Shown here: positions 4,813 through 31,879 of the stretch, in pieces | Layout of the letters: every line of letters starts with the position of its first letter | How positions within the stretch are numbered: position 1 is the first letter of the stretch | DNA from: Elusimicrobia bacterium RIFOXYA2_FULL_50_26 | GTDB taxonomy: Bacteria > Elusimicrobiota > Endomicrobiia > Endomicrobiales > XYA2-FULL-47-53 | DNA: 35,362 bases | Direction of reading: 5' to 3' | NCBI GenBank assembly: GCA_001800355.1 | Contig: MGVF01000019.1 | Span: 1-35,362, forward strand | The notes under the pieces: model-generated | Databases searched by the model: none | What the model was told of the DNA's origin: nothing | The model's input: the letters and a program-made list of their open reading frames with translations, nothing else | Position numbers and translations under genes: made by a program

Positions 4813-4945
4813 GTGTCTCTTTAGCGCTTAGAAGTTGTCGTCGTCATTGCGAGCCCAAAGGGCGCGGCAATCCCGCTTTCATATGAAGCAACGTCGAGAT
4901 TGCTTCGCTCTTGCTCGCAATGACCTCAAACTGCTAAAGAGACAC
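4813..4945 (+). mobile_element. Miniature palindromic element, copy A (MITE-like)
   Basis: A 133-bp element with perfect 13-bp terminal inverted repeats (GTGTCTCTTTAGC / GCTAAAGAGACAC). It also has subterminal inverted GTCATTGCGAGC blocks and an inner GCAATC/GATTGC pair, so most of it can fold into one long hairpin. The flanks are AAATTGTG (4805-4812) and TAATTGTG (4946-4953), an 8-bp target-site duplication with one mismatch. There is no open reading frame. It sits just after the res stop codon and upstream of the hrcA promoter, where its hairpin could also end the R-M transcript. Confidence 0.9.
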
Positions 4946-5119
4946 TAATTGTGAACAACCGGGGTCGGGTCTTTACATTTAGCATAACCAACTGCTGTTA
5001 CGCGCAGTGCCGTTTGCAGGGTGCGATTCCCGTATCGCGCCGGCTGTTACAGTTAGCCGACGATTTTATCCCTACGCTCCACGGCTGTATCCCGCCAATT
5101 GCCGGATGAACTCCGCCGC
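4946..5119. other. Non-coding spacer before hrcA; possible decayed transposon tail
   Basis: No convincing gene is present. A 52-codon open frame starts with GTG at 4951 and ends at 5109, but it has no ribosome-binding site and no family resemblance. The motif read on the minus strand as TGTAAAGACCCGACCCC (about 4953-4972) reminds me of sequence found after REP-associated tyrosine transposase genes. The minus-strand frame ending there reads GYAKCKDPTP but is broken by stops upstream. A short hairpin (CGGCT...AGCCG, about 5040-5060) is also present. The transposon-relic reading rests on memory and is weak. Confidence 0.3.
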
Positions 5120-5148
5120 TTGACATTATTTTTAGTTGGTGGTATAAT
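5120..5148 (+). promoter_or_regulatory. Sigma-70 promoter of the hrcA operon
   Basis: A perfect consensus: -35 TTGACA (5120-5125), a 17-bp spacer, and -10 TATAAT (5143-5148). Transcription should start near 5155, inside the CIRCE element, giving a leader of about 30 nt before the hrcA ATG. Confidence 0.93.
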
Positions 5149-5149
5149 G

Positions 5150-5176
5150 TTAGCACTTGACAGTGTTGAGTGCTAA
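5150..5176 (+). promoter_or_regulatory. CIRCE operator (HrcA binding site)
   Basis: TTAGCACTT (5150-5158), 9-bp spacer, GAGTGCTAA (5168-5176). This matches the CIRCE consensus TTAGCACTC-N9-GAGTGCTAA except for the last base of the left arm. It begins one base after the -10 box, so bound HrcA would block RNA polymerase directly. It lies directly in front of hrcA, making the operon autoregulated and heat-inducible by the standard HrcA-GroE mechanism. Confidence 0.96.
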
Positions 5177-5186
5177 GAATAAATTT

Positions 5187-6224
5187 ATGCGCCAGATTGA
5201 TCCAAAAATTATCGAGGAAAGAAAGAAGCAGGTTTTACAGGCCGTTATACATCATTTTATTAAAACGGCGCGGCCTGTAGGCTCGCATATTCTGACGGAC
5301 GATTATAAATTCGATCTGTCGCCCGCCACTATCCGCAACCTTATGGCGGAGCTGGAGGACGACGGCTATCTTACGCATCCGCACACCTCAGCCGGCAGAA
5401 TACCGACTGACAAGGGCTACCGCGCTTACGTTGATTCCCTGATGGAGCTACAGCGGCTGGCACTTGAAGAGGAATCGCGGGTTCGGCACGAATACCACGG
5501 CCGCGTGAAGGAACTCGAGGAAATACTTGTTAAAACATCCAAGGTGCTTTCGGCGCTGTCGCAGTACACGGGTTTTGTGCTTACCCCGAAACTTGAGAGA
5601 AACAAACTTAAATACCTGGAATTACTGCCGGTAGCGCACCGCAAAATACTCGTTATACTGGTAACGCATACCGGGTTCGTTAAACACCAGATGATAGACG
5701 CTGACATCGCCCCGGAAAAACTCCACCGGCTTAATGCGCTGCTGAACAGTAAGCTTAAAGGGCTTACGCTGCTTGAGGCAAAACAGCAGATTCTGGAAAA
5801 GATTGAGGAAGCCGAGAGGGAAGAACGCGAACTGTTCCTTCTTGCAAGGGATCTCAGCGGGCGCATTTTCGACATCGAAGAAGAAGTATATATGGACGGA
5901 ACAACCAATGTACTGGCGCTTCCGGAGTTCCAGGATTATGAACCCGTGCGTTGCATCTTAAGGCTTAGCGAGCAGAAAGACATACTTGTTCATATACTGC
6001 AGGAAGATCTTACGTCGGACAAGGTCAAGGTGATGATCGGCTCTGAAAGCACGTGCAGGGAATTGCAGAATCTCAGCGTCGTAAGCACGGTTTACAAAGA
6101 CGGCGCGCGGCCTATCGGCGTTCTCGGGATTATAGGCCCCAGGCGCATGGAATATCACAAGATGATGGCGTTGGTAAGTTCGGTGTCAAAGATTCTTAAT
6201 AAACTTCTTTCCAAGGGAGGTTGA
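5187..6224 (+). CDS. hrcA: Heat-inducible transcription repressor HrcA
   Basis: A 345-residue repressor that binds CIRCE and shuts off chaperone genes until heat stress. The N-terminus (MRQIDPKIIEERKKQVLQA) opens a winged-helix domain of about 80 residues with the family blocks SPATIRNLMAELEDDGYL and PHTSAGRIPTDKGYRAYVD. A GAF-like dimerisation domain follows. The C-terminal block IGVLGIIGPRRMEYHKMM is the usual HrcA ending. I chose the ATG at 5187 rather than the in-frame TTG at 5157, because 5157 lies inside CIRCE and the ATG gives the typical N-terminus. No strong Shine-Dalgarno sequence precedes it. It is the first gene of the operon, with its operator 10 bp upstream. GrpE follows after 3 bp. 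Confidence 0.97.
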   Translation: MRQIDPKIIEERKKQVLQAVIHHFIKTARPVGSHILTDDYKFDLSPATIRNLMAELEDDGYLTHPHTSAGRIPTDKGYRAYVDSLMELQRLALEEESRVRHEYHGRVKELEEILVKTSKVLSALSQYTGFVLTPKLERNKLKYLELLPVAHRKILVILVTHTGFVKHQMIDADIAPEKLHRLNALLNSKLKGLTLLEAKQQILEKIEEAEREERELFLLARDLSGRIFDIEEEVYMDGTTNVLALPEFQDYEPVRCILRLSEQKDILVHILQEDLTSDKVKVMIGSESTCRELQNLSVVSTVYKDGARPIGVLGIIGPRRMEYHKMMALVSSVSKILNKLLSKGG

Positions 6225-6227
6225 TGA

Positions 6228-6788
6228 ATGAATAGCAATATTGAAGATACGCCGGAGGCTGTTTCCGACATAGCGCGCGCGGAAAAGGTGTCCGAGCTTG
6301 AAATCCTGCAGCAATCGCTTGAAGAAAAAAAGCGCCTCGCGGACGACTATTACCACCAGCTTCTGCGCCTCAAGGCTGATTTCGAAAACTACCGCAAACG
6401 CGCGGAAAAGGAAAAACACAACCATCTTCTCTGGGGCAAGGAAGAAATTCTGCTGAAACAGATTCGTCTCCTGGACGTCATGGAGCAGGCACAGGCAACG
6501 GCCGTAGACGGAGCTAATCTTGAAAGCATAAAAACCGGCATGAACCTCATTCACCAGGAATTTAAAAAAATCCTGTCCGAGGAAGGCGTGACGGAAATGG
6601 AGTGCAAAGGCGGCGCGTTCGACCCGACGCTACACGAAGCGGTGGAGCAGATTGAAAACGAGCAGCCGGAAGGCACGATAATCGAAGTTATCCAGAAGGG
6701 CTACCAGATAGGCAACAGGATGGTTCGCCCCGCACGCGTAAAAGTGTCAAAGGGAAAAAAAGCAAACGCTGACAACTGCGACAAATAA
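6228..6788 (+). CDS. grpE: Nucleotide exchange factor GrpE
   Basis: A 186-residue cytosolic co-chaperone that releases ADP from DnaK and resets its cycle. The layout is typical: a variable acidic N-terminus, a long helical coiled-coil (about residues 20-90, including the RLKADFENYRKRAEKEK signature), and a C-terminal beta domain with GAFDPTLHEAV and YQIGNRMVRPARVKVSKG. The ATG is preceded by a strong AGGGAGG site at 7-nt spacing and lies 3 bp after the hrcA stop, so it should be cotranscribed and CIRCE-controlled. Length is normal for the family. Nothing unusual was seen. Confidence 0.96.
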   Translation: MNSNIEDTPEAVSDIARAEKVSELEILQQSLEEKKRLADDYYHQLLRLKADFENYRKRAEKEKHNHLLWGKEEILLKQIRLLDVMEQAQATAVDGANLESIKTGMNLIHQEFKKILSEEGVTEMECKGGAFDPTLHEAVEQIENEQPEGTIIEVIQKGYQIGNRMVRPARVKVSKGKKANADNCDK

Positions 6789-6814
6789 ATATCCGATAAA
6801 AGGAGGATACGACA

Positions 6815-8677
6815 ATGGCAAAAATAATCGGCATCGATCTGGGCACATCTAATTCTGCGGCGGCGGTTATGGAGGGCGGCAAGGCAACTATCATACCTTC
6901 GGCGGAAGGCACGACGCTTGGCGGCAAGGCATTCCCGTCCTACGTAGCTTTCACAAAGGACGGCCAGCTTCTCATCGGCGAACCGGCCAGGCGGCAGGCT
7001 ATTACCAACCCTGAAGGAACGATAACGGCGTTCAAGCGTAAAATGGGAACAGACTTCAAGTATTCGATTCACGGCAAGGAATACACGCCGCAACAGCTTT
7101 CGGCGTTCATACTGCAAAAGGTAAAACGCGACGTCGAGGCATTTCTGGGAGAACCGATAGCAAAAGCGGTTATCACGGTTCCCGCATATTTTAACGATAA
7201 CCAGAGGCAGGCGACAAAAGACGCCGGCTCCATCGCAGGCCTTGAAGTTGTTCGGCTTGTAAACGAACCCACCGCCGCATCGCTGGCATACGGAATTGAC
7301 AAGGGCGGCAAGGAACAAAAGATCCTGGTGTTCGACCTCGGCGGCGGAACCCTGGACGTAACCATCATGGAAATGGGCGCGGAGGGAACGTTTGAGGTGC
7401 TTTCAACCTCGGGCGACACCCAGCTTGGCGGCACGGACATGGACAACTCCCTGATTGACTACATCGCCGATGATTTCAAGAAATCAAACGGCATAGACCT
7501 GCGTACTGACAAAATGGCCTTCCAGCGGCTTAAGGAAGCGGCGGAAAAAGCCAAGATTGAACTCTCAAACGTGCTGGAAACCGACATAAACCTGCCGTTC
7601 ATAACGGCGGATGCGTCCGGCCCGAAACATCTTACAATGCGTTTCACGCGCGCAACTCTTGAAAATATAGTGCGCCCGATAGTTGACCGCTGCCGGAAAT
7701 CCATAGACCAGGCAATGACCGACGCAAAACTTTCCCTTGCCGATATCGGCAAGATCATCCTCGTCGGCGGCCCAACCCGCATGCCCATAGTCCAGAAATT
7801 CGTCGAGGATTTTGTCGGCAAAAAAGTGGAACACGGCATTGACCCCATGGAATGCGTAGCCATCGGCGCAGGAATCCAGGCCGCAGTACTGACAGGTGAA
7901 GTAAAGGACATATTGCTGCTTGACGTTACTCCGCTTACCCTTGGCGTTGAAACGTTCGGCGGCGTGCGCACGGCGATAATAGACCGCAATACTACGATAC
8001 CGGTGAAACGCTCCCAGGTATTTTCTACCGCGGCGGATAACCAGCCTTCAGTGGAAATACACGTATTGCAGGGCGAACGGCCGCTTGCAAAAGACAACGT
8101 TTCCCTCGGACGCTTCTTCCTTGAAGGCATACCGCCCGCTCCACGCGGCGTTCCGCAGGTAGAAGTTACCTATGACATAGACGCAAACGGCATTCTGCAT
8201 GTTCTTGCCAAAGACCTCGGCACCAAAAAGGAACAATCCATCCGTATCACCGCTCCGAACAAGCTGTCCAAGGACGAGGTGGATAAATTCGTAAAGGAAG
8301 CCGAAAAATTCTCCGACGAAGACAAGAAACGCAAAGAGGAGATAGAGGTAAAGAACGAAACCGACACGCTTGTCTACTCCACTGAAAAAAGCCTCAAGGA
8401 TTACGGCGACAAAGTATCGCCGGACGACCGCCTGCAGATAGAGCGCGCGCTGACGGAAACAAAGGATGCCCTTAAAACCAACGACCTTGAAGCCATAAAA
8501 AAGGCAAAAGAAGCGCTTATCGCCGCATCTCACAAACTGGCCGAGGCAGTATACAAGGAAGCGCAGGCAAAAGCCGCCCAGCAACAACAGGGCGCCGGGC
8601 AGCCTCAAGGGGAAGAACCCAGGAAGGAAGAAGAAAATGTCGTCGAAGCCGAAGTCGTAAAGGATGAAAAGAAGTGA
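6815..8677 (+). CDS. dnaK: Chaperone protein DnaK (Hsp70)
   Basis: A 620-residue Hsp70. The ATPase domain (about 1-375) shows the phosphate-1 loop GIDLGTSNS (6-14), the phosphate-2 block [14 protein letters not shown], and the adenosine motif [10 protein letters not shown]. The substrate-binding domain follows the [15 protein letters not shown] linker and includes [11 protein letters not shown] and [11 protein letters not shown]-like blocks (here [11 protein letters not shown]). An alpha-helical lid and an acidic, Gln-rich tail finish the protein. A strong AAAGGAGG site lies 8 nt before the ATG. The stop overlaps the dnaJ GTG by 4 bp. It refolds proteins with DnaJ and GrpE, encoded on either side. 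GTS replaces the more usual GTT in the first loop; this conservative change occurs in other DnaKs. Confidence 0.98.
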
Positions 8678-9804
8678 AACGGGATTATTACGAAATACTC
8701 GGCGTAGCTAAAAATTCTACGGCCGACCAGATAAAGAGCGCCTATCGCCAGCTTGCCCTTAAATACCACCCGGACAAGAACCAGGGCAACAAGGCTGCGG
8801 AAGAGCAGTTCAAGGAAATCAACGAGGCATACGAAATGCTCTCCGACGGACAGAAACGCGCGCAGTACGACCGCTTCGGCCATGCCGGGGTGGGAACGGC
8901 GCCACCGCCGCCGGGCGCAGGCGGCGGGTATGCCACCGGCGGAAATGTTGATTTCGGAGATTTTTCGTCGGTGGGCGACATTTTCGGCGATATGTTCGGA
9001 GATGTGTTCTCAGGCAGGGGCGGCCGAAGAGGTGGCGGCGCGCGCAAGGGAGCAGACCTCCGCTACGACCTTGAGCTTACGTTGCATCAGGCCTTCAGCG
9101 GCGCGGAAATCCCTCTTGAAATCCCGCGCATGGAATCATGCCCTGTTTGCAGCGGCTCAGGCGCAAAACCCGGGACATCTCCAAAAACATGCCCGCAATG
9201 CAAGGGAACGGGACAAGTGCGCTATTCACAAGGGTTCTTTTCATTCGCCCAGACATGCCCCCGTTGCCGCGGCACTGGCGAAACCATTGATACGCCCTGC
9301 CCTCGTTGTCACGGGCAAGGCGCGGTAAAAGGCACTCACCGCATTACTGTGCGCATACCCGCCGGCATCAACGAAGGCACATCCCTGCGCGTCGCAGGGG
9401 CCGGCGATGCAAGCGAAAAGGGCAGCGCTCCTGGCGACCTATATGTCGTAGTACACCTCAAAAAAGATCCGGTATTCAGCCGCGAGGACGACGACCTTAT
9501 AACCGAGCTGCCTCTTGCGTTTTCCCATGCCGTGCTGGGCGGCGAGTTTGCAGTTTCAACCATCGGCGGGAAAGTAACGTTGAAAATTCCCGCCGGCACT
9601 CAGCCACACACGACGTTCCGCGTCAGGAACGAAGGTTTCCCGCACATTGACCGCAGGGGACGCGGCGATTTACTTGTGAGAACAACCATAGTCATACCCA
9701 AAAACCTCAACGATAAGCAAAAAGCAGCCCTGCACCAGTTCGCGCAATCCGTAGGCGAAGACGTCCCCGGCTCCGACGGCATTTTCAAAAAGGTTTTCGG
9801 GTAG
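8674..9804 (+). CDS. dnaJ: Chaperone protein DnaJ (Hsp40)
   Basis: A 376-residue class-I J-protein that delivers substrates to DnaK and stimulates its ATPase. The J domain (1-70) carries HPD at 32-34. A Gly/Phe-rich linker follows (about 75-115, with a PPPPGAGGG run). The zinc region has four CxxCxGxG-type repeats, starting at C156, C173, C195 and C209. C-terminal substrate-binding domains complete the protein. The GTG start overlaps the dnaK stop (GTGA), the usual sign of translational coupling. The next gene, rsmE, starts 1 bp after the stop. All functional residues are present. Confidence 0.97.
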
Positions 9805-9805
9805 T

Positions 9806-10534
9806 ATGCCTCATTTTTTTATACCTCCTGAAAACATCGCCGGCAATAAGTTTACGCTTACGGGAGACGAGGTTCATCACCTTATTCGCGTGCGCCGCTG
9901 CGCCGCCGGGGCAACAATTCAATTATTCGACGGCACGGGGAAAACATACAACGCCCGCATTGACGAAATAGAAAAAAATTCCATACGCGGCACGATTATA
10001 AACGAAACGTCATTTGCGCCGCCACGGGTGCGCCTTCATCTTTTTCTATCAGTTCCAAAGGGTGAAAGATTCGACTGGATGGTGGAAAAGGCGTCTGAAC
10101 TCGGCGTGCATTCCATTACACCGCTTGTAACCTCGCGCAGCATAATAAAAAACATCGAGCCGCCTAAACTGGAGCGCTGGAAACGATTGTCCATGGCGGC
10201 GAGCCAGCAATCGCGCCGCCCGGATATAATGGCAATAAACTCGCCGCAGCATTTTCCCGCCGCGATCGCGCAAGTATCACGGCAAACCGTCAATCTTATC
10301 CCCTGGGAAGCGGAAGAGGCAAAAACACTCGATGAATACGCGCCCGCCATATCAGGAGCTTCCGGCGTTACGGTTTTCATCGGACCCGAGGGCGGATTTT
10401 CCGCCGATGAAATTAGGCAGGCCGAAGATCGCGGGCTAATGCCCGTAACGCTTGGCAAACGCATTCTCCGGGTCGAAACGGCAGGCCTGCTTGCCGCCAT
10501 ACTGGTTCTAAACTGTGCCGGTGAATTCAGGTGA
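9806..10534 (+). CDS. rsmE: 16S rRNA (uracil1498-N3)-methyltransferase RsmE
   Basis: A 242-residue SPOUT-fold enzyme that methylates N3 of U1498 in helix 44 of 16S rRNA. The N-terminal PUA-like domain reads HLIRVRRCAAG. The C-terminal trefoil-knot domain shows IGPEGGFS (GPEGG at 193-197) and LGKRILRVETAGLLAAI, the SAM-binding knot. It starts with ATG 1 bp after dnaJ and overlaps mtaB by 4 bp (GTGA). RsmE next to dnaJ is a recurrent bacterial arrangement. Here it would be carried on the HrcA-controlled transcript, linking ribosome modification to heat-shock control. Confidence 0.95.
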   Translation: MPHFFIPPENIAGNKFTLTGDEVHHLIRVRRCAAGATIQLFDGTGKTYNARIDEIEKNSIRGTIINETSFAPPRVRLHLFLSVPKGERFDWMVEKASELGVHSITPLVTSRSIIKNIEPPKLERWKRLSMAASQQSRRPDIMAINSPQHFPAAIAQVSRQTVNLIPWEAEEAKTLDEYAPAISGASGVTVFIGPEGGFSADEIRQAEDRGLMPVTLGKRILRVETAGLLAAILVLNCAGEFR

Positions 10535-11730
10535 AAGCATTCATTTTTACCTTCGGGTGCAAGGTTAATCAATATGAATCCCAGTTATTGCGCGAACGCC
10601 TCGCCCGCGACGGTTATTCGTGGGCGGACACGATTTACGACGCGGATGCGGTTTTTATAAACAGTTGCACCGTAACGTCCGAGGCCGACCGCCAGTGCAG
10701 GCAGCTGATACGCAAGGTGGCAAACAGAAACCCTGGCGCCAAAATTTTAATTTCCGGCTGTTATGCCGCACGGGCATCGGGCGAGCTGAAAAAGCTCTCG
10801 CCACGCGTTGAAATTGCAGGCGCCGCCTCTATAAATTTAACGGCAAGCGCTCCCGCATCCATCACGGCTTTCGACGGCCATTCCCGCGCTTTCGTAAAAA
10901 TCCAGGACGGCTGCAACAGTTTCTGTTCCTACTGTATCGTCCCATTCGTACGCCGGGAAATGTGGAGCAAACCCACTGCCATTGCCGTGGAAGAAATACG
11001 TACACTTGTGGCCAACGGCTACCCTGAGATCGTTCTTTCCGGGGTCAGGCTGGGGCGCTACGACGGCGGCCTGGTTCCGCTTCTTAAAAAAATTATTGCA
11101 TTGCAGGGGCGCTTCCGCATACGCCTCTCATCCCTCGAAGCGCTGGATGTTACCGACGGCCTGCTGGACTGCATGGCGGATTACAGGGAAAAAATATGCG
11201 CCCACCTGCACATACCCATGCAATCGGGTTCGGACGCGGTTTTGCGGCGAATGAATCGCCCGTACTTGTCGGACGGGTTTCTCCGCATCGCGGAAAATAT
11301 CGCCCGCCGCCTGCCGGATGCGGGCATTACAACCGACATAATAGTTGGTTTCCCGGGGGAAACCGGCGACGATTTTGAGCAAACGCATAAACTGGCGGCA
11401 AGCGGCATATTCAGCCGGCTTCACGTTTTTTCTTTTTCTCCGCGCCCCGGAACCGCGGCCGAAAAGTTTCCCGGGCGCATAGATGCCGGAATAATCAAGG
11501 AACGCGCCGGCCTGCTCCGCGCCCTTGATGCCGGCCTTCAGGATATTTTTTGGAAAAGGTTCATAGAAAAGAAACTGGCCGTTGTCCGTGAAGGGACAAA
11601 AAACACATTGCTAAGCGATAATTATATACGGCTGCATTCTTTAGATGATATAAATACAATTTCAGATTCACTTTTCAATGTAAAACTGGTATCGCACAAT
11701 GGGAAGCCGGCAGCCACTTGCATTTCTTGA
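10531..11730 (+). CDS. mtaB: tRNA t6A37 methylthiotransferase MtaB
   Basis: A 399-residue radical-SAM methylthiotransferase that converts t6A to ms2t6A at tRNA position 37. The N-terminal UPF0004 domain binds one iron-sulfur cluster through C10 (TFGCKVNQYES), C46 (NSCTVT) and C77 (SGCYA). The radical-SAM cluster motif is C128-x3-C132-x2-C135 (DGCNSFCSYCIVP). The C-terminal region is a short TRAM-like domain. The TFGCKVNQYE N-terminus fits MtaB better than MiaB or RimO. The start is GTG, overlapping the rsmE stop. The last ~130 bp are AT-richer and contain the promoter for the HIT gene. It is a little shorter than most MtaB proteins but has no missing cluster ligand. Confidence 0.92.
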   Translation: MKAFIFTFGCKVNQYESQLLRERLARDGYSWADTIYDADAVFINSCTVTSEADRQCRQLIRKVANRNPGAKILISGCYAARASGELKKLSPRVEIAGAASINLTASAPASITAFDGHSRAFVKIQDGCNSFCSYCIVPFVRREMWSKPTAIAVEEIRTLVANGYPEIVLSGVRLGRYDGGLVPLLKKIIALQGRFRIRLSSLEALDVTDGLLDCMADYREKICAHLHIPMQSGSDAVLRRMNRPYLSDGFLRIAENIARRLPDAGITTDIIVGFPGETGDDFEQTHKLAASGIFSRLHVFSFSPRPGTAAEKFPGRIDAGIIKERAGLLRALDAGLQDIFWKRFIEKKLAVVREGTKNTLLSDNYIRLHSLDDINTISDSLFNVKLVSHNGKPAATCIS

Positions 11731-11746
11731 TGAATTCTGTTATAAT
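11718..11746 (+). promoter_or_regulatory. Promoter for the HIT-family gene, inside the end of mtaB
   Basis: -35 TTGCAT (11718-11723), a 17-bp spacer, and -10 TATAAT (11741-11746). The -35 lies in mtaB coding sequence. Transcription is expected near 11753, only about 3 nt before the HIT ATG at 11756, so the mRNA may be almost leaderless. Confidence 0.75.
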
Positions 11747-11755
11747 ACAAACATT

Positions 11756-12097
11756 ATGAGTTGCCTGTTTTGCAGGATGGTTAGCGGCGAGATCAAAACA
11801 GAGATTGTTTTTCAAAGCGATACCATTCTTTGCTTCAGGGATATTAACCCGCAGGCGCCGGTTCATATTTTACTTATTCCGAAGAAACACATCGCGGGAT
11901 TGAACGATATTTCCAAAGAAGATATACCAGTTCTTGGGGAAATACAAACCGTGGCTCAATTGCTTGCCAAACAGGAAGCGATTGACGCTACAGGTTATCG
12001 CCTGGTGACTAATTGCGGCGCGGACGCAGGCCAGGCAGTCGCTCATCTTCACTACCACCTGCTTGGCGGGCGAAAGTTCGGTTGGCCGCCGGGTTAA
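11756..12097 (+). CDS. HIT-family (HinT-like) purine nucleotide phosphoramidase
   Basis: A 113-residue histidine-triad protein. The catalytic motif HLHYHLLGG places His at 97, 99 and 101, and the N-terminal CLFCRMVSGEI (C3, C6) is the zinc-binding start seen in many HinT-like proteins. Members hydrolyse nucleoside phosphoramidates and related adenylated compounds in the cytosol; the physiological substrate is uncertain. I chose ATG 11756 because the longer in-frame start at 11699 overlaps mtaB and adds residues the family lacks. No Shine-Dalgarno sequence is visible, and a consensus promoter ends 9 bp before the ATG, so translation may be leaderless. It sits between the heat-shock operon and rpsU and seems to be its own transcription unit. 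Confidence 0.93.
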   Translation: MSCLFCRMVSGEIKTEIVFQSDTILCFRDINPQAPVHILLIPKKHIAGLNDISKEDIPVLGEIQTVAQLLAKQEAIDATGYRLVTNCGADAGQAVAHLHYHLLGGRKFGWPPG

Positions 12098-12124
12098 AGT
12101 AAGCGATATTCACCCTTTGGATAT

Positions 12125-12184: not shown

Positions 12185-12238
12185 GTTTAATTAACATAAG
12201 ATACTTGATGATTATTTGGAAAGGTGGTGTAATTTCAC

Positions 12239-12445: not shown

Positions 12446-12463
12446 AAAAATTACGGTAGTTCT

Positions 12464-18996: not shown

Positions 18997-19130
18997 GTGT
19001 CTCTTTAGCCGTTTGAGGTCATTGCGAGCGAGAGCGAAGCAATCTCGATGTTGCTTCCGATGAAAAGCGAGATTGCCGCGCCCTTTGGGCTCGCAATGAC
19101 GACGACAGCTTCAAAATGCTAAAGAGACAC
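18997..19130 (-). mobile_element. Miniature palindromic element, copy B (MITE-like)
   Basis: 134 bp, inverted relative to copy A, with perfect 13-bp terminal repeats. It is flanked by a perfect 8-bp duplication CATTTATT (18989-18996 and 19131-19138). It lies 51 bp after rnpB and upstream of the TSUP gene, and codes for nothing. The identical flanks suggest a relatively recent insertion. Confidence 0.93.
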
Positions 19131-19533: not shown

Positions 19534-19542
19534 TAACTTCTA

Positions 19543-19668
19543 ATGTTACGCAGCGTGTCATTGCGAGGAGCCTTCGCGACGAAGCAATCTCGTCGTTTTG
19601 ATACGAAACAGCGAGATTGCTTCGCTTCGCTCGCAATGACAGCAACTTTGGCATTTCTTGCGTAACAT
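19543..19668. repeat. Palindromic repeat with MITE-like core but different ends
   Basis: 126 bp with 10-bp terminal inverted repeats ATGTTACGCA / TGCGTAACAT. Inside are the same GTCATTGCGAG...GAAGCAATCTCG core and the same central ~35 bp (from CTCGTCGTTTTGATACG) as copy D. The GTGTCTCTTTAGC ends are absent, and no flanking duplication is seen. It fills most of the space between the TSUP gene and the mraZ promoter. Confidence 0.8.
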
Positions 19669-19706
19669 CAGCAATAATTCTTATATCTCACCTCTTTTCT
19701 TTTCTC

Positions 19707-20240: not shown

Positions 20241-21131
20241 ATGGAACAATCCACTTATCACAAACCTGTGATGACGGCCGAGGTCGGGGAATATCTTATA
20301 AACAACCCTTCGGGGATTATAATTGATTGTACCCTTGGAGGCGGCGGGCATAGCGCGTATCTACTTGAGCGTTACCCGTCCTTGCGCGTGATAGGCATTG
20401 ATGCCGACGAGGAAGCCACCGGCGAAGCAGCCCGCAACCTTGAACGGTTCGCCAACCGCGTGCAGATAATCAGGGAAAATTTTAAAAACATCGCGGCGGT
20501 GTGCTCCGCGCTTAACATTCGTGCGGTCAACGGCATACTGGCCGATCTCGGCGTTTCATCCAGGCAGCTTGATGACATTGAGCGCGGGTTCGGATTTTTG
20601 TCTCCAAGGCTTGACATGAGAATGGATAAACGGCTTGGGGCGGACGCGGAACACATCGTCAACACAATGGGCGAAACTGAACTCGCGAATCTTTTTTATA
20701 CGCTGGGAGGAGAATTTTTCAGCCGCCCGATTGCACGCGCAATAGTGCGGGCGCGCGAACGCCGCCGCATAACTTCGGGACAGGAACTTGCCGAAACCGT
20801 GCAAAAGGTAAAATACCGTAAAGGCAAAATACATCCCGCCACGAAGGTATTCCAGGCGCTGCGAATCGCGGTAAACACTGAACTTGATAATCTTACAAAC
20901 CTTCTAAATGATGCTCCCGCCCTGCTTGCTTCCGGCGGCAGGATGGTTATACTCAGCTACCATTCACTTGAGGATCGCATAGTTAAGAATAATTTCAGGT
21001 CCCTTGCCCATGAAGGCATATACCGTTTATTGACGAAGAAAGTCGTTCCTCCTTCCGAGAATGAGATTTCAGAGAATCCGCGAAGCCGGAGCGCAAAGCT
21101 GCGCGCGGTAGAAAAAAATGTGTCTCTTTAG
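20241..21131 (+). CDS. rsmH: 16S rRNA (cytosine1402-N4)-methyltransferase RsmH, C-terminus altered by a miniature element
   Basis: A 296-residue SAM-dependent enzyme (also MraW) that methylates N4 of C1402 in 16S rRNA. The SAM motif DCTLGGGGHSAYLL lies at about 29-42. Family blocks GILADLGVSSRQLDD, RLDMRMD, FQALRIAVNTEL and LSYHSLEDRIVK are all present. The conserved tail RSRSAKLRAVEK is intact. The last residues NVSL and the TAG stop (21129-21131) come from miniature element C, which begins at 21120. From the flanking duplication I infer an original tail of EKIQSIVKTEKTAQ with a stop 20 bp before ftsL. Catalysis should be unaffected. No clear ribosome-binding site precedes the ATG, so coupling with mraZ is likely. 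Confidence 0.95.
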   Translation: MEQSTYHKPVMTAEVGEYLINNPSGIIIDCTLGGGGHSAYLLERYPSLRVIGIDADEEATGEAARNLERFANRVQIIRENFKNIAAVCSALNIRAVNGILADLGVSSRQLDDIERGFGFLSPRLDMRMDKRLGADAEHIVNTMGETELANLFYTLGGEFFSRPIARAIVRARERRRITSGQELAETVQKVKYRKGKIHPATKVFQALRIAVNTELDNLTNLLNDAPALLASGGRMVILSYHSLEDRIVKNNFRSLAHEGIYRLLTKKVVPPSENEISENPRSRSAKLRAVEKNVSL

Positions 21132-21255
21132 CAGTCTGAGGTCATTGCGAGCGAGAGCGAAGCAATCTTGTTGTTTGACGACTATAAAGGCGAGATTGCT
21201 TCGTCACTTCGTTCCTCGCAATGACGACGACAACTTCTAAACGCTAAAGAGACAC
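21120..21255 (-). mobile_element. Miniature palindromic element, copy C, inside the end of rsmH
   Basis: 136 bp, inverted relative to copy A, with perfect 13-bp terminal repeats. The flanks AAAAAAAT (21112-21119) and GAAAAAAT (21256-21263) form an 8-bp duplication with one mismatch. It supplies the rsmH stop codon and now separates rsmH from ftsL by 186 bp in an otherwise compact cluster. Confidence 0.92.
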
Positions 21256-23290: not shown

Positions 23291-23300
23291 GCGTGCAAGC

Positions 23301-24782: not shown

Positions 24783-26136
24783 ACTGGTGAACGCAACGCG
24801 CGGAGAATTCCTGCTGGGTGATCCCCATGCCCCGGTTCGCGCAATTTCTATAGATACAAGGACACTGCACAGGGGAGACTTCTTTTTTGCCATAACCGGC
24901 AGAAATTTCGACGGACACGAGTTCATAAAGAACGCGGCCGAGAGGCTGGCCGGCGGCCTTATAGTTTCAATTACCGACGTGCCTATCGGCAATCCGTTCC
25001 CATTCCTTCCGGCAATGATAAAGGTAGTGGATACAACCTTCGCCCTCGGCGACCTGGCAAGATACTACCGCAAAAAGTGGAATATACCGCTTGTCGCCAT
25101 AACCGGCTCCAACGGCAAAACGACGACGAAAGAAATGCTGACGGCGATTCTTGAACTAGACAGCCCTACGCTGAAAAATGCCGGCAACCATAATAACCAG
25201 ATAGGCGTGCCGCTGACGCTTTTTAACCTGGGACACCAACACCGCTATGCCGTAGTCGAGATGGGAACGTCGCTTCCCGGCGAGATAAGCCGCCTTTGCG
25301 ACATAGCCTCGCCCGTCGGCGGAATAATAACCAACATCGGCCTGGCTCATATTGAAACATTCAAAAATTTTGACGGCGTATTCGCTGAAAAAACATCGCT
25401 TATCCCGGGAATCGCAACTGGCGGGTGGGTAATAATAAATGCCGACGATCCGTATCTTTCACGCATCGCGCATGTAAACGACAGGGAGATTATTCCCGTA
25501 AGCATGGAATCAAAAGCCGTTGTTTGCGCCAGGGACATGGAGCAATGGCAGGGCAAACCCGTTTTCAAATTGTCCGTGGAGGGAAAAACAGTGCCGGTGC
25601 GCCTTCCCATGTACGGAAAATTCAATATTTACAACGCGCTCTATGCCGCTGCCGCCGCCTGGAAACTGGGAGCAAGGCTTGACCAGATAAAGCAGGGGCT
25701 GGAGCATTTCAAACCGCCCGCCATGCGCATGGAAGAATATGTTACGGCCAACAATGTAACTGTAATAAATGACGCTTATAACGCCAATCCGTCTTCGATG
25801 AGGGCATCCATAGACAGCTTCATACAATCCTTCGCCGACAAAAGAAAGGTTATAGTTCTTGCCGACATGCTGGAGCTTGGCGCCAATGCGGAAAGCGAAC
25901 ACCGGCAACTGGGCGAATTCCTGGCAACACGGCCGCTGGATAAGATTTTCTTGTTCGGGCCGTTGATGGAAAATGCGACCGGCGCGGCATCCGCGCAGCA
26001 CTTTACCGACCGCGATGCCATGGAACTTGAAATACAACATTACCTTCAACCCGGCGACGCGATCCTGTTCAAGGGATCGAGAGGCATGCGCCTGGAAGTA
26101 ACCATAGCCCACTTGTTTTCGGAAACCGGAGAATAA
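24760..26136 (+). CDS. murF: UDP-MurNAc-pentapeptide synthetase MurF
   Basis: A 458-residue ligase that adds D-Ala-D-Ala to UDP-MurNAc-tripeptide. The N-terminal substrate domain has AISIDTRTLHRGDFFFAI. The ATP loop is GSNGKTT at 116-122, followed by NHNNQIGVPLTLF, EMGTSLPGEI and NDAYNANPSSM, all MurF hallmarks. I chose ATG 24760, with AGGGA 9 nt upstream, giving the usual MENLYL-type start; ATG 24730 would add ten residues deeper inside murE. mraY follows with no spacer at all. Confidence 0.95.
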   Translation: MENLYLHELVNATRGEFLLGDPHAPVRAISIDTRTLHRGDFFFAITGRNFDGHEFIKNAAERLAGGLIVSITDVPIGNPFPFLPAMIKVVDTTFALGDLARYYRKKWNIPLVAITGSNGKTTTKEMLTAILELDSPTLKNAGNHNNQIGVPLTLFNLGHQHRYAVVEMGTSLPGEISRLCDIASPVGGIITNIGLAHIETFKNFDGVFAEKTSLIPGIATGGWVIINADDPYLSRIAHVNDREIIPVSMESKAVVCARDMEQWQGKPVFKLSVEGKTVPVRLPMYGKFNIYNALYAAAAAWKLGARLDQIKQGLEHFKPPAMRMEEYVTANNVTVINDAYNANPSSMRASIDSFIQSFADKRKVIVLADMLELGANAESEHRQLGEFLATRPLDKIFLFGPLMENATGAASAQHFTDRDAMELEIQHYLQPGDAILFKGSRGMRLEVTIAHLFSETGE

Positions 26137-27222
26137 ATGTTCTACCACCTGCTATACCCGTTACGTTATTACTTTTCACCGTTTAACCTGTTCCAGTATA
26201 TTACCTTTCGCGTGGGCGGAGCGATACTTACCAGCCTGCTAATCTGCTTTATCTTCGGCCCGCCTTTGATACGCTACCTTCAACGCCTGAAAATCGGACA
26301 AACCGTGCGCAATGACGGCCCTGCATCGCACCTTTCAAAAGCAGGGACTCCGACCATGGGCGGATTGTTGATACTTGTCTCCATGGTTATCTCCACGCTT
26401 TTATGGGCGCGGCTGGACAATCGCTTTATTCTGCTGACGCTTGCCGGCACCGTGTGGCTCGGCCTTCTCGGCTTCTGGGACGACTATCTAAAACTTGTAA
26501 AAAAGCATCCCAGGGGCTTGTCGCCCCAAAGTAAATTCCTGGGACAAACCGTCTTTGCCGCCATCATAGCCGTTTACCTGTGGTTCTTCCCGGCAAATAG
26601 CGCATACGCGTCTTCCATCAACGTCCCTTACCTGAAAGATGTGTTCGTAAACCTTTATTCCGGTTATATACTTTTCTCGGCTCTTATAATAATAGGAAGC
26701 TCTAACGCGGTTAACCTTACCGACGGGCTTGACGGGCTTGCCATCGGCAGCCTGATTATCGCCGCATTCACGCTTGGCGCGCTTGCATACTTTGCCGGAC
26801 ATTTAAAAATAGCGCAATACCTGCGCATTATCCCGGTGCCGGGCTCCGGAGAACTGAGCATATTTCTTGCGGCTTTGATAGGCGCGGGCCTCGGATTCCT
26901 ATGGTTCAACGCATATCCCGCCCAGATGTTCATGGGGGATACGGGCAGTCTATTCCTGGGCGGCGCGCTCGGGCTTATAGCCGTATTCATTAAACAGGAA
27001 TTGATACTTGTGATCATAGGAGGAGTATTCGTCGCCGAGGCGCTGTCCGTTATCCTGCAGGTTTACTCATTTCGCCACCGCAAAAAAAGAATTTTCAAGA
27101 TGGCTCCCATACACCACCATTTCGAGCTCTCCGGTTGGCCTGAAACAAAAGTTACCATACGTTTCTGGATTATAAGTATTATATTGTCCCTGATAGCTCT
27201 CGCCTCGTTAAAACTCCGATGA
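26137..27222 (+). CDS. mraY: Phospho-MurNAc-pentapeptide translocase MraY
   Basis: A 361-residue integral membrane enzyme with about ten transmembrane helices. It transfers phospho-MurNAc-pentapeptide to undecaprenyl phosphate, making lipid I. Signatures include the TPTMGG motif after SKAG, the aspartate-rich LGFWDDYLKLVKK, NLTDGLDGLAIG, NAYPAQMFMGDTGS, and the terminal PIHHHFELSGWPETKV. The N-terminal half-periplasmic leader (LLYPLRYYFSPFNLF) is the form found in Gram-negative MraY. Its ATG immediately follows the murF stop. It overlaps murD by 4 bp. Confidence 0.97.
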   Translation: MFYHLLYPLRYYFSPFNLFQYITFRVGGAILTSLLICFIFGPPLIRYLQRLKIGQTVRNDGPASHLSKAGTPTMGGLLILVSMVISTLLWARLDNRFILLTLAGTVWLGLLGFWDDYLKLVKKHPRGLSPQSKFLGQTVFAAIIAVYLWFFPANSAYASSINVPYLKDVFVNLYSGYILFSALIIIGSSNAVNLTDGLDGLAIGSLIIAAFTLGALAYFAGHLKIAQYLRIIPVPGSGELSIFLAALIGAGLGFLWFNAYPAQMFMGDTGSLFLGGALGLIAVFIKQELILVIIGGVFVAEALSVILQVYSFRHRKKRIFKMAPIHHHFELSGWPETKVTIRFWIISIILSLIALASLKLR

Positions 27223-28580
27223 CAAGCACATTGAAAGGGAAAAAAACAGGCGTCCTCGGCATGGCGCGTTCCGGGATCGCGGCAGCCAATATGGCTCACT
27301 CCATGGGTGCAAGCGTACTGGTAAGCGAGGTGCGCGAAAAAAAAGAATGTGCCGCGGCGTTGCAGCAGCTTGCAAAAGGCATACGCCACGAATTCGGGGG
27401 GCACTCCAAAGCCCTGCTGGGCTGCGATATAATCGTCAAAAGTCCCGGCATCCACAGGGACATAACCATACTTAAAAAAGCGGACGGCTTAAAGATCCCG
27501 GTAGTAAGCGAGATAGAGCTTGCAAGCCGCCTGATAACACCTTCCTCCACCATCGCCATAACCGGCACCAATGGAAAAACAACCACCACAACGTTGATGG
27601 GCGAACTATGCAAAAATGCGGGGCGAAAGACAATAGTCGCGGGGAACATCGGCGATCCGCTGGCAGCGCATGTTGTAAGCATTACCCCGAAAACGACCGT
27701 GGTTCTTGAGGTATCAAGTTACCAGTTGGAAGACTCGCCCGAATTTCATCCCGACATCTGCGCAATACTAAACATTACGCCCGACCATATAGAGCATCAC
27801 CATACAATGGAAAATTACGCGCTGGCCAAGGCAAAAATTTTCGGCCGCCAGTCGAAGGACGATACATGCGTCCTTAATTATGACGATCCTGCCTGCCGCA
27901 AACTTGCCCGGTCATGCCCTGGCCGGGTTATATTTTTCAGCCGTAAAAAGATAGCGTCCGGCGTCTATTTTTATAAAGGGCGCATAGAGGTGCGGCTGCC
28001 GTTTGCGCAATACTCGCTGCCTGCCAAATTAAAAATACCGGGCATGCATAATATTGAAAATGCCATGGCGGCTGTTGCGATGGCCGCTGCCGCGGGTATA
28101 GCTGAACAAGTAATCAAAAAAACCCTGGCGGAGTTTAAGGGCGTCGAACACCGCATGGAATTCGTGGCCGAGATAAACGGCGTGCGATACATAAATGATT
28201 CAAAGGGAACGAATGTAGATTCAACCGTTGTGGCGCTGCGCTCGTTTAATAAGCAGGGCGTATGGCTTATCCTGGGCGGCAGGGATAAGGGCGCTCCATA
28301 CAAGCCGCTTGAGCCGCTGATAAAGAAGAACGTCCGCGGCATACTTCTTATTGGCGAGGCGGCCAATAAAATACGAAAGGAACTCTCCGGCTCCACCGCG
28401 TTTTATTTCACAGGCACGCTTGAAACCGCCGTGGAGCTTGCCGCCTCGCTTGCAAAACGCGGCGAAATAGTCCTGCTCTCGCCGGCCTGCGCCTCGTTCG
28501 ACCAGTTCAAGGATTACGAAGACAGGGGGCGCCGCTTCAAAGACATCGTCAAAAAAAAGATCCTCTCTACGCAGGCATAA
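27219..28580 (+). CDS. murD: UDP-MurNAc-L-alanine:D-glutamate ligase MurD
   Basis: A 453-residue cytosolic ligase that adds D-glutamate to UDP-MurNAc-L-Ala. The N-terminal Rossmann-like domain reads GVLGMARSGIAAA (11-23), followed by KSPGI. The ATP loop is GTNGKTT at 116-122. The central domain has EVSSYQLED and NITPDHIEHH, and the C-terminal domain NDSKGTNVDSTV and LILGGRDKGAPY. LSPACASFDQFKDYEDRG is the usual ending. The order MurD after MurE and MurF in the cluster is standard even though it acts before them. The stop is followed at once by a palindromic repeat, the only non-MITE break in the cluster. Confidence 0.96.
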   Translation: MTSTLKGKKTGVLGMARSGIAAANMAHSMGASVLVSEVREKKECAAALQQLAKGIRHEFGGHSKALLGCDIIVKSPGIHRDITILKKADGLKIPVVSEIELASRLITPSSTIAITGTNGKTTTTTLMGELCKNAGRKTIVAGNIGDPLAAHVVSITPKTTVVLEVSSYQLEDSPEFHPDICAILNITPDHIEHHHTMENYALAKAKIFGRQSKDDTCVLNYDDPACRKLARSCPGRVIFFSRKKIASGVYFYKGRIEVRLPFAQYSLPAKLKIPGMHNIENAMAAVAMAAAAGIAEQVIKKTLAEFKGVEHRMEFVAEINGVRYINDSKGTNVDSTVVALRSFNKQGVWLILGGRDKGAPYKPLEPLIKKNVRGILLIGEAANKIRKELSGSTAFYFTGTLETAVELAASLAKRGEIVLLSPACASFDQFKDYEDRGRRFKDIVKKKILSTQA

Positions 28581-28686
28581 GTTCCTTCTCCCCGCCGGGG
28601 AGAAGGCCAGGATGAGGGGGAAGTCGTCGGGAACAGAACCTTTAGCTCCCCCTCACCTTTCCTCTCCCCGACGGGGAGAGGAAACG
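28581..28686. repeat. GC-rich inverted-pair palindromic repeat between murD and ftsW
   Basis: Two inverted copies of one ~40-bp unit (28581-28620 and 28645-28686) with a 24-bp centre. Each copy contains its own hairpin: CTTCTCCCC-GC-CGGGGAGAAG-like on the left, CTCTCCCCG-ACG-GGGAGAG-like on the right, and the two copies pair through the GAGGGGG/CCCCCTC blocks. It starts right after the murD stop. It is unrelated in sequence to the MITE copies, and no flanking duplication is seen. It could attenuate transcription or protect the mRNA 3' end. Confidence 0.75.
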
Positions 28687-28714
28687 AGTTACCGACGATA
28701 ATCTCAGGCCTGTG

Positions 28715-28720
28715 TATAAT
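28715..28720 (+). promoter_or_regulatory. Possible -10 element upstream of ftsW
   Basis: TATAAT at 28715-28720, in the first clear stretch after the murD-ftsW repeat. No good -35 box is found at 16-18 bp, so this is a weak candidate for an internal promoter that would keep ftsW-murG expressed if the repeat blocks read-through. Confidence 0.35.
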
Positions 28721-28748
28721 GACAAGCCAACGGAGAAAGGGCAGGGTG

Positions 28749-29885
28749 ATGGGGCTGATGAAAGGCAAGAAAAACGACGCAACGTATAGCACTGATTTCA
28801 CGCTCCTTTTGTTAACCGCAATACTGGTTACATTCGGCACGATTATGGTTTTTTCGTCGAGTGTAATTATGGCTGAAATTCGCTTCCAAACACCATACAT
28901 CTTTATCATCAAACATGTTATATGGGTAGCCGCCGGCGCTGTCGCCATGTTTGCATTCTCGCGCTACGACTACCGTAAACTTCAGGAACTCACGCGGCCG
29001 CTTATAATAACGGCCGTAACGCTATTGGTGCTTGTCGTGATAATCGGCTCGGAAAAAGGCGGCGCAAAACGCTGGTTTAAGCTGGGGCCGATGAGCTTCC
29101 AACCTTCGGAATTCGCCAAGCTCGCGCTTGTGATAGCAATGGCCGATTTCATGGATAGAAAAAAAAGTCGGCTGAATAAGATGAAAGGGCTTTTACCTGC
29201 CCTGGGGCTTGCGGGCTTGTTCTGCTTTCTTATATCACTTGAGCCCGATTTAGGCACGCCGGTAATAATGGTTGCGGTTACGGTGGCCATGCTGTTCGTA
29301 GCCGGCGCGCGCCTGGGACATTTGCTATTAATAGGTATATCGTTCGTGCCGCTGGTAGCCCTGGAAATTCTGCGAAAGCCGTACCGCCTTGCGCGCATGA
29401 AGGCGTACCTGCAATCAGTGGGCGATATCAGCTCCAGTTCATACCAGTTGGATCAATCAATCCTTGCGCTGGGCAACGGCGGTTTTTTCGGCAGGGGGCT
29501 TGCCCACAGCCAGATGAAACTGTTTTACCTGCCGGAACCGCATACGGATTTCATTTTCCCTATAATAGGCGAGGAAACAGGATTCATAGGCACGATAATA
29601 CTTATTGTTTTATTTATCATATTTGCCTGGCGGGGATGGATGATATCTAAAAACAGCCCTGATTTCTTCGGAGGGATGCTGGCCATGGGCATCACTCTTT
29701 TGATAACAACCCAGGCCGTTTTCAACATGGGTGTGGCGACGGGGTTACTGCCCACCAAGGGGCTGCCTTTGCCGTTTGTATCTTTCGGCGGCACCGCTCT
29801 TGTCATTAATATGGCGGGGGTAGGCATACTGTTGAACGTTTCGCGGCACATGAAAAAACATCAGGCGAAAAAAGGGAATTATTGA
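28749..29885 (+). CDS. ftsW: Septal peptidoglycan glycosyltransferase FtsW (SEDS)
   Basis: A 378-residue polytopic SEDS protein (about ten membrane segments) that polymerises lipid II at the septum with FtsI. Signature blocks are GGAKRWFKLGPMSFQPSEFAK, EPDLGTPVIM, YQLDQSILALGNGGFFGRGL, LPEPHTDFIFPIIGEETGF and LPTKGLPLPFVSFGGTAL. I chose ATG 28749, which has GGAGAAAGG 8 nt upstream; in-frame ATGs at 28719 and 28758 are alternatives, and 28719 would begin within the possible -10 box. RodA is less likely, because the gene lies between murD and murG in the dcw cluster. Confidence 0.94.
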   Translation: MGLMKGKKNDATYSTDFTLLLLTAILVTFGTIMVFSSSVIMAEIRFQTPYIFIIKHVIWVAAGAVAMFAFSRYDYRKLQELTRPLIITAVTLLVLVVIIGSEKGGAKRWFKLGPMSFQPSEFAKLALVIAMADFMDRKKSRLNKMKGLLPALGLAGLFCFLISLEPDLGTPVIMVAVTVAMLFVAGARLGHLLLIGISFVPLVALEILRKPYRLARMKAYLQSVGDISSSSYQLDQSILALGNGGFFGRGLAHSQMKLFYLPEPHTDFIFPIIGEETGFIGTIILIVLFIIFAWRGWMISKNSPDFFGGMLAMGITLLITTQAVFNMGVATGLLPTKGLPLPFVSFGGTALVINMAGVGILLNVSRHMKKHQAKKGNY

Positions 29886-30973
29886 TGCCAGAACTGAAAA
29901 CAATTATTATTGCGGCGGGGGGAACCGGAGGCCACCTGTACCCGGGCATTGCGCTGGCGCGGGAACTTGCCCGTCGCAACTTTACACCGGTGTTTATCGT
30001 GCGCGAAAACGATCCGGCGCAAGATATACTGGCACGTGAACAATTTGCGTTTCGCGCCATTCCCGTGCGAGGAATGCCCAGGAAAATATCCTTTAGATTC
30101 GCCGGATTTATATATTTTCTTTTTAAAGGCCTGTTTGCAACGGCGCGTGTTCTTGGAGAATTGAAACCGGAAGCGGTAGTGGGCATGGGCGGCTACATTT
30201 CATTTCCAGCCGTATTCATTGCGCGATTGATGGGGATGCGGACGCTTATACACGAGCAGAATTATATTCCCGGGCTTAGCAACCGCATCCTGTCGCATTT
30301 TTGCGGTACCGTTGCCGTAAGTTTCGAACAATCCGCTTCATTCTTCAGCCGGCGCAAAACCATAGTAACCGGCAACCCCGTGCGCGCAGACCTGTTTAAC
30401 GCGCAGCCGCGCGAGGCATACGCCTTCTTCGGCCTTGACCCGGCCAAATGCACCGTGTTGGTTTTCGGCGGAAGCCTTGGAGCTTCGGCGCTGAACACGG
30501 CAATCGTCTCTACACTGCCGGAGCTTGCCGACGCAAAAGATAAGCTTCAATTCATACACCTGGCCGGCAAACGCGACGCCGATACGGTTGCAGCAGCATA
30601 TAAGGCCGCCGGCATACGTGCCGCCGTGCGCGCCTATCTCCACGAGATCGGGCTTGCATATTCGGCCGCCGACCTTGTAATCTGCCGCGCCGGCGCCACG
30701 ACTGTTACGGAACTGTCGTTCCTTAAAAAGAAGGCAGTGCTTGTCCCGTACCCTCATGCAACCGCCGACCATCAGCACTTCAACGCCTCGCTACTGGTAC
30801 AATCAGGCCAGGCAGTGGAAATACGCGAAAACGCGCTAACGCCCGCGCTGCTGGCAAGCCGGATCGTGGCTGCCGCCGAAACATTCGCAACACACACCGC
30901 CCCACCGCCCCCGCCGCCCGCCCTGCCACAATCCCGCCTTGCCGACGCCGTTAGTGCCTCTTTAGCGTTTTGA
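29885..30973 (+). CDS. murG: UDP-GlcNAc:undecaprenyl-PP-MurNAc-pentapeptide transferase MurG, C-terminus altered by a miniature element
   Basis: A 362-residue GT-B glycosyltransferase that turns lipid I into lipid II at the inner membrane face. The N-terminal GGTGGHLYPG loop (about 12-21), VVGMGGYISFP, LIHEQNYIPGLSNR and VTGNPVR are present. The C-terminal domain has LVFGGSLGASALN, ICRAGATTVTEL and LVPYPHATADHQ, so the donor and acceptor sites look complete. The ATG overlaps the ftsW stop by 1 bp (TGATG). The last six residues, SASLAF, and the TGA stop come from element D, which starts at 30954. From the flanking duplication I infer an older tail AVVNIVLYTKR with its stop at 31117. A proline run (PPPPPP) sits near the end. 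It is the last dcw gene in the window; murC, ftsQ, ftsA and ftsZ do not follow. Confidence 0.95.
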   Translation: MPELKTIIIAAGGTGGHLYPGIALARELARRNFTPVFIVRENDPAQDILAREQFAFRAIPVRGMPRKISFRFAGFIYFLFKGLFATARVLGELKPEAVVGMGGYISFPAVFIARLMGMRTLIHEQNYIPGLSNRILSHFCGTVAVSFEQSASFFSRRKTIVTGNPVRADLFNAQPREAYAFFGLDPAKCTVLVFGGSLGASALNTAIVSTLPELADAKDKLQFIHLAGKRDADTVAAAYKAAGIRAAVRAYLHEIGLAYSAADLVICRAGATTVTELSFLKKKAVLVPYPHATADHQHFNASLLVQSGQAVEIRENALTPALLASRIVAAAETFATHTAPPPPPPALPQSRLADAVSASLAF

Positions 30974-31082
30974 AGTTGTCGTCGTCATTGCGAGCGGAGC
31001 GAAGCAATCTCGTCGTTTTGATACGAAACAGCAAGATTGCTTCGCTCTCGCTCGCAATGACCTCAAACTGCTAAAGAGACAC
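30954..31082 (+). mobile_element. Miniature palindromic element, copy D, inside the end of murG
   Basis: 129 bp in the same orientation as copy A. The left terminal repeat has one change (GTGCCTCTTTAGC); the right is perfect. The flanks CGCCGTTA (30946-30953) and CGCCGTTG (31083-31090) form an 8-bp duplication with one mismatch. It supplies the murG stop codon and lies directly upstream of the vapBC promoter. The internal sequence is very close to copy E. Confidence 0.92.
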
Positions 31083-31096
31083 CGCCGTTGTTAATA

Positions 31097-31125
31097 TTGT
31101 ATTATACACAAAAAGATAGTATAAT
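31097..31125 (+). promoter_or_regulatory. vapBC promoter with overlapping inverted repeat (probable operator)
   Basis: -35 TTGTAT (31097-31102), a 17-bp spacer, and -10 TATAAT (31120-31125). The inverted repeat ATTATAC (31101-31107) / GTATAAT (31119-31125) overlaps both boxes, as expected for autorepression by a VapB-VapC complex. The promoter starts 15 bp after element D. Confidence 0.75.
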
Positions 31126-31153
31126 TGGTGTATGGATCGCAAAGGAGAATGAA

Positions 31154-31348
31154 ATGACACGTACCAATATTGATATTAATGACAGGCTTATAAAAGAAGG
31201 CATGAGCATAACGCATTGCAAAACAAAAAAAGAGCTGGTTAATTATGCCCTGGAAGAACTTGTAAAAATAAAACACCGCAAGGGCATCCTTAAATTCGCC
31301 GGCACAAAATGCTGGAAAGGGAATCTCGATAAAATGAGAACAATGTAA
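31154..31348 (+). CDS. vapB: VapB-type antitoxin
   Basis: A 64-residue antitoxin. The N-terminus TRTNIDINDRLIKEGM is a ribbon-helix-helix-like start typical of the VapB family that pairs with PIN toxins, followed by TKKELVNYALEELVK. The C-terminal part (KFAGTKCWKGNLDKMRTM) is the expected toxin-binding tail. I chose ATG 31154 because AAAGGAG lies 7 nt upstream; a longer frame from 31088 crosses the promoter. The stop overlaps the toxin ATG by 1 bp (TAATG), the usual coupling. It should neutralise VapC and repress the operon. Confidence 0.9.
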   Translation: MTRTNIDINDRLIKEGMSITHCKTKKELVNYALEELVKIKHRKGILKFAGTKCWKGNLDKMRTM

Positions 31349-31749
31349 TGATTATCGTTGACACTTCCGTCTGGATTGAGCTGTTTCGTAATACCCATTC
31401 AGAGCATGCCGCTGCATTAAAGGACTTACTGGAAAACAGAAACGGCGAAATAGTACTAACCGATATTATAGTGATGGAGATTTTGCAGGGAATAAGCGAT
31501 GATAAAATCTTCGAAGAAATAAAACGCTATTTGCTTGAATTTCCTCTGATCGAAGCTCGTACGCCAGCCACCTACATACATTCCGCCCGATTGTACCGCT
31601 TATGCAGAAGAAAAGGGCTTATCGTTAGAAAAAGTATTGACCTGTTAATCGCGGCCATCGCAATTGAAAACCGGCTGGAAGTATTCCATCGCGACAGAGA
31701 CTTCGAAACAATAGCAACTGTTTCGGCGTTAAAAATCTACAAACCATGA
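31348..31749 (+). CDS. vapC: VapC-type PIN-domain toxin ribonuclease
   Basis: A 133-residue PIN-domain protein. The acidic active site is complete: D5 (MIIVDTSVWIELFR), E44 (VMEILQG), D98 (SIDLLIAA) and D116/D118 (HRDRDFE). VapC toxins cut RNA, often initiator tRNA or the rRNA sarcin-ricin loop; the target here is unknown. The ATG overlaps the vapB stop. The TGA stop lies inside the left 8-bp duplication of element E, so the protein end is unchanged by that insertion. The gene pair is bracketed by elements D and E within otherwise housekeeping DNA. Confidence 0.93.
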   Translation: MIIVDTSVWIELFRNTHSEHAAALKDLLENRNGEIVLTDIIVMEILQGISDDKIFEEIKRYLLEFPLIEARTPATYIHSARLYRLCRRKGLIVRKSIDLLIAAIAIENRLEVFHRDRDFETIATVSALKIYKP

Positions 31750-31751
31750 TG

Positions 31752-31879
31752 GTGTCTCTTTAGCGTTTTGAAGTTGTCGTCGTCATTGCGAGCGGAGCGA
31801 AGCAATCTCATCGTTTTGATACGAAACATCGAGATTGCTTCGCTCTCGCTCGCAATGACCTCAGACTGCAAAGAGACAC
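31752..31879 (+). mobile_element. Miniature palindromic element, copy E, after vapC
   Basis: 128 bp, same orientation as copies A and D. The right terminal repeat lacks one T (GCAAAGAGACAC). It is flanked by a perfect 8-bp duplication CCATGATG (31744-31751 and 31880-31887), the left copy of which contains the vapC stop codon. Before insertion, surE would have started about 13 bp after the vapC stop. Confidence 0.93.

Follow-up and report, generated by a model that had tools for sequence, protein, structure and literature searches.

The window, by which we mean the whole stretch of 35,362 nucleotides analysed here, carries five copies of a short palindromic repeat that belongs to a much larger family in the same genome. 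This family, referred to as family A, is very probably a MITE family that has been mobilised by a DDE-type transposase from another locus. Its copies would have exchanged their core, given rise to one-ended products and survived chiefly at gene borders. The mobilised parts would be two 13-bp ends (GTGTCTCTTTAGC) together with short, unequal sub-terminal arms (AGTTTGAG, GTTTTGAAGTTGTCGTC). A DDE-type transposase acting in trans would insert this unit with an 8-bp stagger, and the palindromic core between the arms (GTCATTGCGAG...CTCGCAATGAC) would be carried as cargo that is independent of these particular ends.

Family A copies in the window

The sequence-only reading had described five copies, and all of them were found where it had placed them:

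4813..4945, minus strand: family A copy, 133 bp, core type c1; duplication AAATTGTG/TAATTGTG (7/8)
18997..19130, plus strand: family A copy, 134 bp, core type c1; duplication CATTTATT (8/8)
21120..21255, plus strand: family A copy, 136 bp, core type c2; duplication AAAAAAAT/GAAAAAAT (7/8)
30954..31082, minus strand: chimeric copy with A ends and the c3 core of family B, 129 bp; duplication CGCCGTTA/CGCCGTTG (7/8)
31752..31879, minus strand: second chimeric copy with A ends and c3 core, 128 bp; duplication CCATGATG (8/8)

The flanking 8-mers read as they had been given, matching fully for copies 18997 and 31752 and at seven of eight positions for copies 4813, 21120 and 30954. Of the ten window ends, eight carry without change the 13-mer that had been proposed as the common end, but the remaining two deviate: one end of copy 30954 has a single mismatch (GTGCCTCTTTAGC), and the right end of copy 31752 has a one-base deletion (GCAAAGAGACAC). 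Similarly, the subterminal inverted repeats GTCATTGCGAGC/GCTCGCAATGAC are present on both sides in four copies, but the right arm of copy 21120 reads CCTCGCAATGAC. When folded, all five window copies form long hairpins with energies of -58 to -79 kcal/mol.

Copy number and distribution

The assembly to which the window belongs, as contig 19, totals 2.01 Mb in 138 contigs and is estimated to be 92% complete. Copy numbers in this assembly are based on pattern counts and on a 376-kb sample of long contigs, the window included. The exact 13-bp end occurs 100 times genome-wide (54 + 46), with 0 occurrences of a reversed-pattern control, and 190 times (99 + 91) when up to one mismatch is allowed, against 2 for the control. 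Both ends are exact over 13 bp in 23 pairs. The 190 ends correspond to about 95 pairs, with more degraded ends not yet counted. The sample contains 28 full-length copies and 59 core-bearing stretches, and scaling it gives about 150 full copies, a figure that derives from contigs picked for their length and known hits. Family A probably comprises more than 100 copies in this genome, and the large genome-wide expansion that had been suspected from the window is borne out by the end counts. Given these counts with their controls, and the frequency of target duplications described below, the five window copies are not a product of chance.

The elements typically measure 122-136 bp, with a nested variant of 251 bp. 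Three contigs terminate within a copy, and copies therefore break the assembly.

The searches place these ends in a single species. Each of 340 further genomes of the phylum has the 13-bp ends 0-2 times, which is no more than chance. No intact end pairs were found in the GTDB r220 contigs (84,980 species, with the source genome itself possibly left out) or in IMG/VR. A search for the element in phages and a search for the core in plasmids found none. The UvrB encoded in the window is nearest to that of Candidatus Ruminimicrobiellum bubulum (Elusimicrobiota), at 67%, and the phylum covered by these genome searches is accordingly taken to be Elusimicrobiota.

Target duplications and evidence for transposition

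The original reading of the five window copies, that a non-autonomous element has truly transposed with a stagger of 8 bp, is supported across the genome. The flanking 8-mers match at 7-8 of 8 positions in 45 of 62 distinct full-length copies, compared with 0.9 for shuffled partners, and the positional agreement between the two outer 8-mers across the 62 copies is 83%. Duplication lengths of 5-7 and 9-12 bp each fit at most two copies. The duplicated sites are A+T-rich, with 31% G+C versus 40% just outside. Terminal inverted repeats, a duplication of constant length, and a short multi-copy form without a transposase gene, all features of MITEs, are found together in family A.

The match between the two 8-mers is complete in 21 copies and extends to seven positions in 24, six in 10 and fewer in the last 7. 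This spread of scores implies that much of the family A expansion is probably not recent. Copies without flanking duplications had been named as evidence that would speak against transposition; 55 of the 62 copies match at six or more positions, but seven match at five or fewer. The state of these seven full copies is compatible with decay or recombination. At a further full-length copy (L014:1501-1634), a 17-base repeat (GAATTACAAAAATATTT) stands at the flanks instead of the usual 8-bp duplication.

Shortened copies

Sixteen copies lack 10-30 aligned bases on one side, some of them through internal deletions with the end kept. In six of them one terminal repeat is largely or entirely gone, with 11, 12, 13, 20, 22 and 24 bases missing, and the lost side can be either side of the element. 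These 6 of the 16 copies tested have an 8-bp duplication no more than one base away from the shortened end (8/8 in five and 7/8 in one), and a mismatched-pairing control yielded 0 duplications. Two shortened copies, L101:970-1087 and L064:1501-1613, have direct flanking repeats of 11-13 bases instead of a clean 8-bp duplication. The pattern of one intact end, a variable other end and a duplication of normal length is seen in six shortened copies:

L083:17137: shortened copy; duplication GATAAATC
L083:2915: shortened copy; duplication ATTTTCAT
L069:1124: shortened copy; duplication CTTTTATT
L104:806: shortened copy; duplication GCTTATTC/T
L023:859: shortened copy; duplication AAATTATC
L066:1501: shortened copy; duplication TGAAATAA

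We consider these six to be candidate products of one-ended transposition, in which the transposase would sometimes pair one true end with a false internal end and thereby leave a shortened copy flanked by an 8-bp duplication. PMC4133298 cites the one-ended transposition of Tn21 as one way in which variable ends arise, and the signature of the shortened family A copies resembles that of Tn21 as cited there, but with an 8-bp stagger.

It is quite possible, on the other hand, that the shortened copies arose by normal insertion and subsequently had one end trimmed through abortive excision, with no one-ended transposition involved. A nick followed by resection of the element side would be expected to place the junction of the shortened end at the duplication, which is where it sits in the six, and the repeats at L101 and L064 exceed 8 bp or are offset. 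Such resection should erode the flank side as well, yet the duplications are intact. If one-ended transposition is indeed their origin, the shortened copies with exact 8-bp duplications would be natural examples of this process carried out by a transposase outside the Tn3 family.

Search for the transposase

No transposase is evident among the ORFs of the window, as had been stated before; this rests on inspection by eye, with three ORFs tested against Pfam. Among the fetched loci with exact ends, none has a transposase between family A ends, and a full-length IS with such ends was not found there: the ends open into the short bodies or, at locus L048, into what looks by eye like the tail of a DNA-polymerase-IV gene. 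The families IS66, IS1595 and ISAs1, which had been put forward as candidates, found no support: searches of the 92%-complete assembly for IS1595, IS256, IS66, IS6 and PF01609-type (IS4/ISAs1) transposases gave no match. The sole transposase that emerged from six family searches of the assembly is a single-copy gene:

L113 / G000:C136:13273-13962: ISL3 transposase gene with a late frameshift; inverted ends GGCTCTTCTCC...TTGTGGGTA

As the only transposase turned up by these searches, the ISL3-family enzyme has to be considered as the driver of family A, and 8-bp duplications are typical of the ISL3 family. We nevertheless regard this assignment as improbable, since the ends of the ISL3 element do not align with GTGTCTCTTTAGC and the element is present in a single copy with no clear duplication. 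The proposal that family A is an ISL3-derived MITE was rejected on the same difference in ends. For the preferred DDE-type transposase encoded elsewhere, mobilisation in trans can only be inferred, because no transposase with these ends was found. The parent IS of MITEs is often lost, and the gene for the driver may have been lost here or may lie outside the assembled sequence.

The core as a separate module

The palindromic body described for the window copies is present, but it does not belong to the element as such: it forms a module of its own that can be exchanged, and the same core lies between other ends. Across the genome, the palindrome GTCATTGCGAG(40-70)CTCGCAATGAC is found in 171 places, and a palindromic core with a different inner sequence occurs in 14 other genomes of the phylum among 199 searched, with 1-23 occurrences in each. 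In a literature search with the core string CATTGCGAGC, the papers among the matches listed were all on unrelated subjects.

Cores are associated with the ends of families B, C and D as well as with those of family A. Family C has ACAGGCTGTGTCATAATT-type ends and is often nested, with a CGTCATTCCGGCGAAAGCCGGAATC palindrome, and the rare family D places the core between GTACTCTGTAAGACTGA ends. Family B and the nested arrays of family C are represented by the following features:

19542..19669 of the window, plus strand: family B element, 128 bp, c3 core between GATGTTACGCA-type ends; no clear target duplication
L074:1003-1305, L091:19552-19924 and L070:694-944: family C arrays nested with A- and B-type elements

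At the boundaries tried, families B, C and D, with few copies or uncertain ends, gave no consistent target duplication.

A total of 104 cores in the fetched DNA were sorted by core type and by ends:

c1 cores: A ends 80, D ends 2, no ends 1
c2 cores: A ends 6, C ends 1
c3 cores: B ends 11, A ends 2, no ends 1

The chimeras at 30954 and 31752 have arms that are 90-100% identical to family A, and a core that is 85-88% identical to family B versus 79% to family A. The two chimeras share 95% identity and are flanked by separate duplications, which means that the chimera transposed as a unit after it had formed. These separate duplications indicate that cores can pass between end families and stay mobile.

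Recombination within the palindrome that the families share, or a template switch there, is the probable route of this exchange, and nesting with a later deletion may be another. Nesting of whole elements is seen directly in L070, L074, L091 and L092, and may account for some of the core sharing with no true exchange involved. A broader interpretation, which we put forward tentatively and hold to be somewhat doubtful, is that a single core travels as exchangeable cargo with several sets of transposon ends that are unrelated to each other, all in one genome, so that the repeat persists by switching transposase while its chimeras stay mobile. It is very unlikely that the GTCATTGCGAG palindrome is itself the mobile unit and the 13-bp ends are co-copied flanks of one lineage (e.g. 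REP-type or slippage): the core is indeed more widely spread than the ends, which are absent or at chance level in the 14 other genomes, but it is the 13-bp ends, and not the core, that the 8-bp duplications immediately border, a position that largely refutes this explanation, and different cores share the same ends.

Comparison with known systems

Family A is of a known kind: a MITE expansion, here well documented, in a phylum that has been little studied. Prokaryotic MITEs are reviewed in PMC10969869, and family A resembles them in being short and gene-free, with terminal inverted repeats, target duplications, a strong hairpin, intergenic placement and presumed mobilisation in trans. It differs in that no parent IS can be named and in that its ends were found in a single species of those searched. 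TIMEs, the Tn3-derived miniature elements described in PMC4133298, are likewise non-autonomous and have mosaic forms, but they have ends of about 40 bp and 5-bp duplications, in contrast to the 13-bp ends and 8-bp duplications of family A.

The BOX, RUP and SPRITE repeats of Streptococcus pneumoniae (PMC3049150, PMC10969869) offer another parallel, with several small repeat families in one genome and insertion of one into another. Here, however, one core is found between unrelated ends, and family A has precise 8-bp duplications. Taken by itself, the core is similar to interspersed extragenic palindromes such as REPINs (PMC3116915), from which family A differs by its transposon-type ends and its duplications. 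Specialists are likely to be most interested in the exchange of cores and in the candidate products of one-ended transposition that occur naturally here.

Placement relative to genes

The position of copies relative to genes was analysed with mechanical ORFs. In the 376-kb sample, 46% of the full copies have an ORF stop no more than 25 bp away, compared with 17% of random non-coding positions, and 39% lie near an ORF start, compared with 15%. Nine of the 28 sample sites fall inside a mechanical ORF, some of them through over-extended ORF starts. This clustering would reflect survival, with copies persisting chiefly at gene borders and insertions within genes selected against, and does not amount to proven target choice.

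A neighbouring ORF terminates inside the element in 9 of 65 full copies, the window cases being rsmH-like and murG-like genes. The TAG stop of the rsmH-like ORF (20241-21131) is provided by the end of copy 21120..21255, and the stop codon of the murG-like ORF (29882-30973) by the chimeric copy 30954..31082. Copies of family A account for some of the gene ends in this genome, as they do for some of the assembly breaks.

Two other features of the window were recorded. An RNase P RNA gene (RF00010; 18563-18949), detected with a score barely over the gathering cut-off, ends about 48 bp upstream of the family A copy 18997..19130. A RhuM-family gene (PF13310) at 1110-2129 is flanked by DNA-methylase-like and helicase-like ORFs, a neighbourhood that suggests a type III restriction-modification locus.
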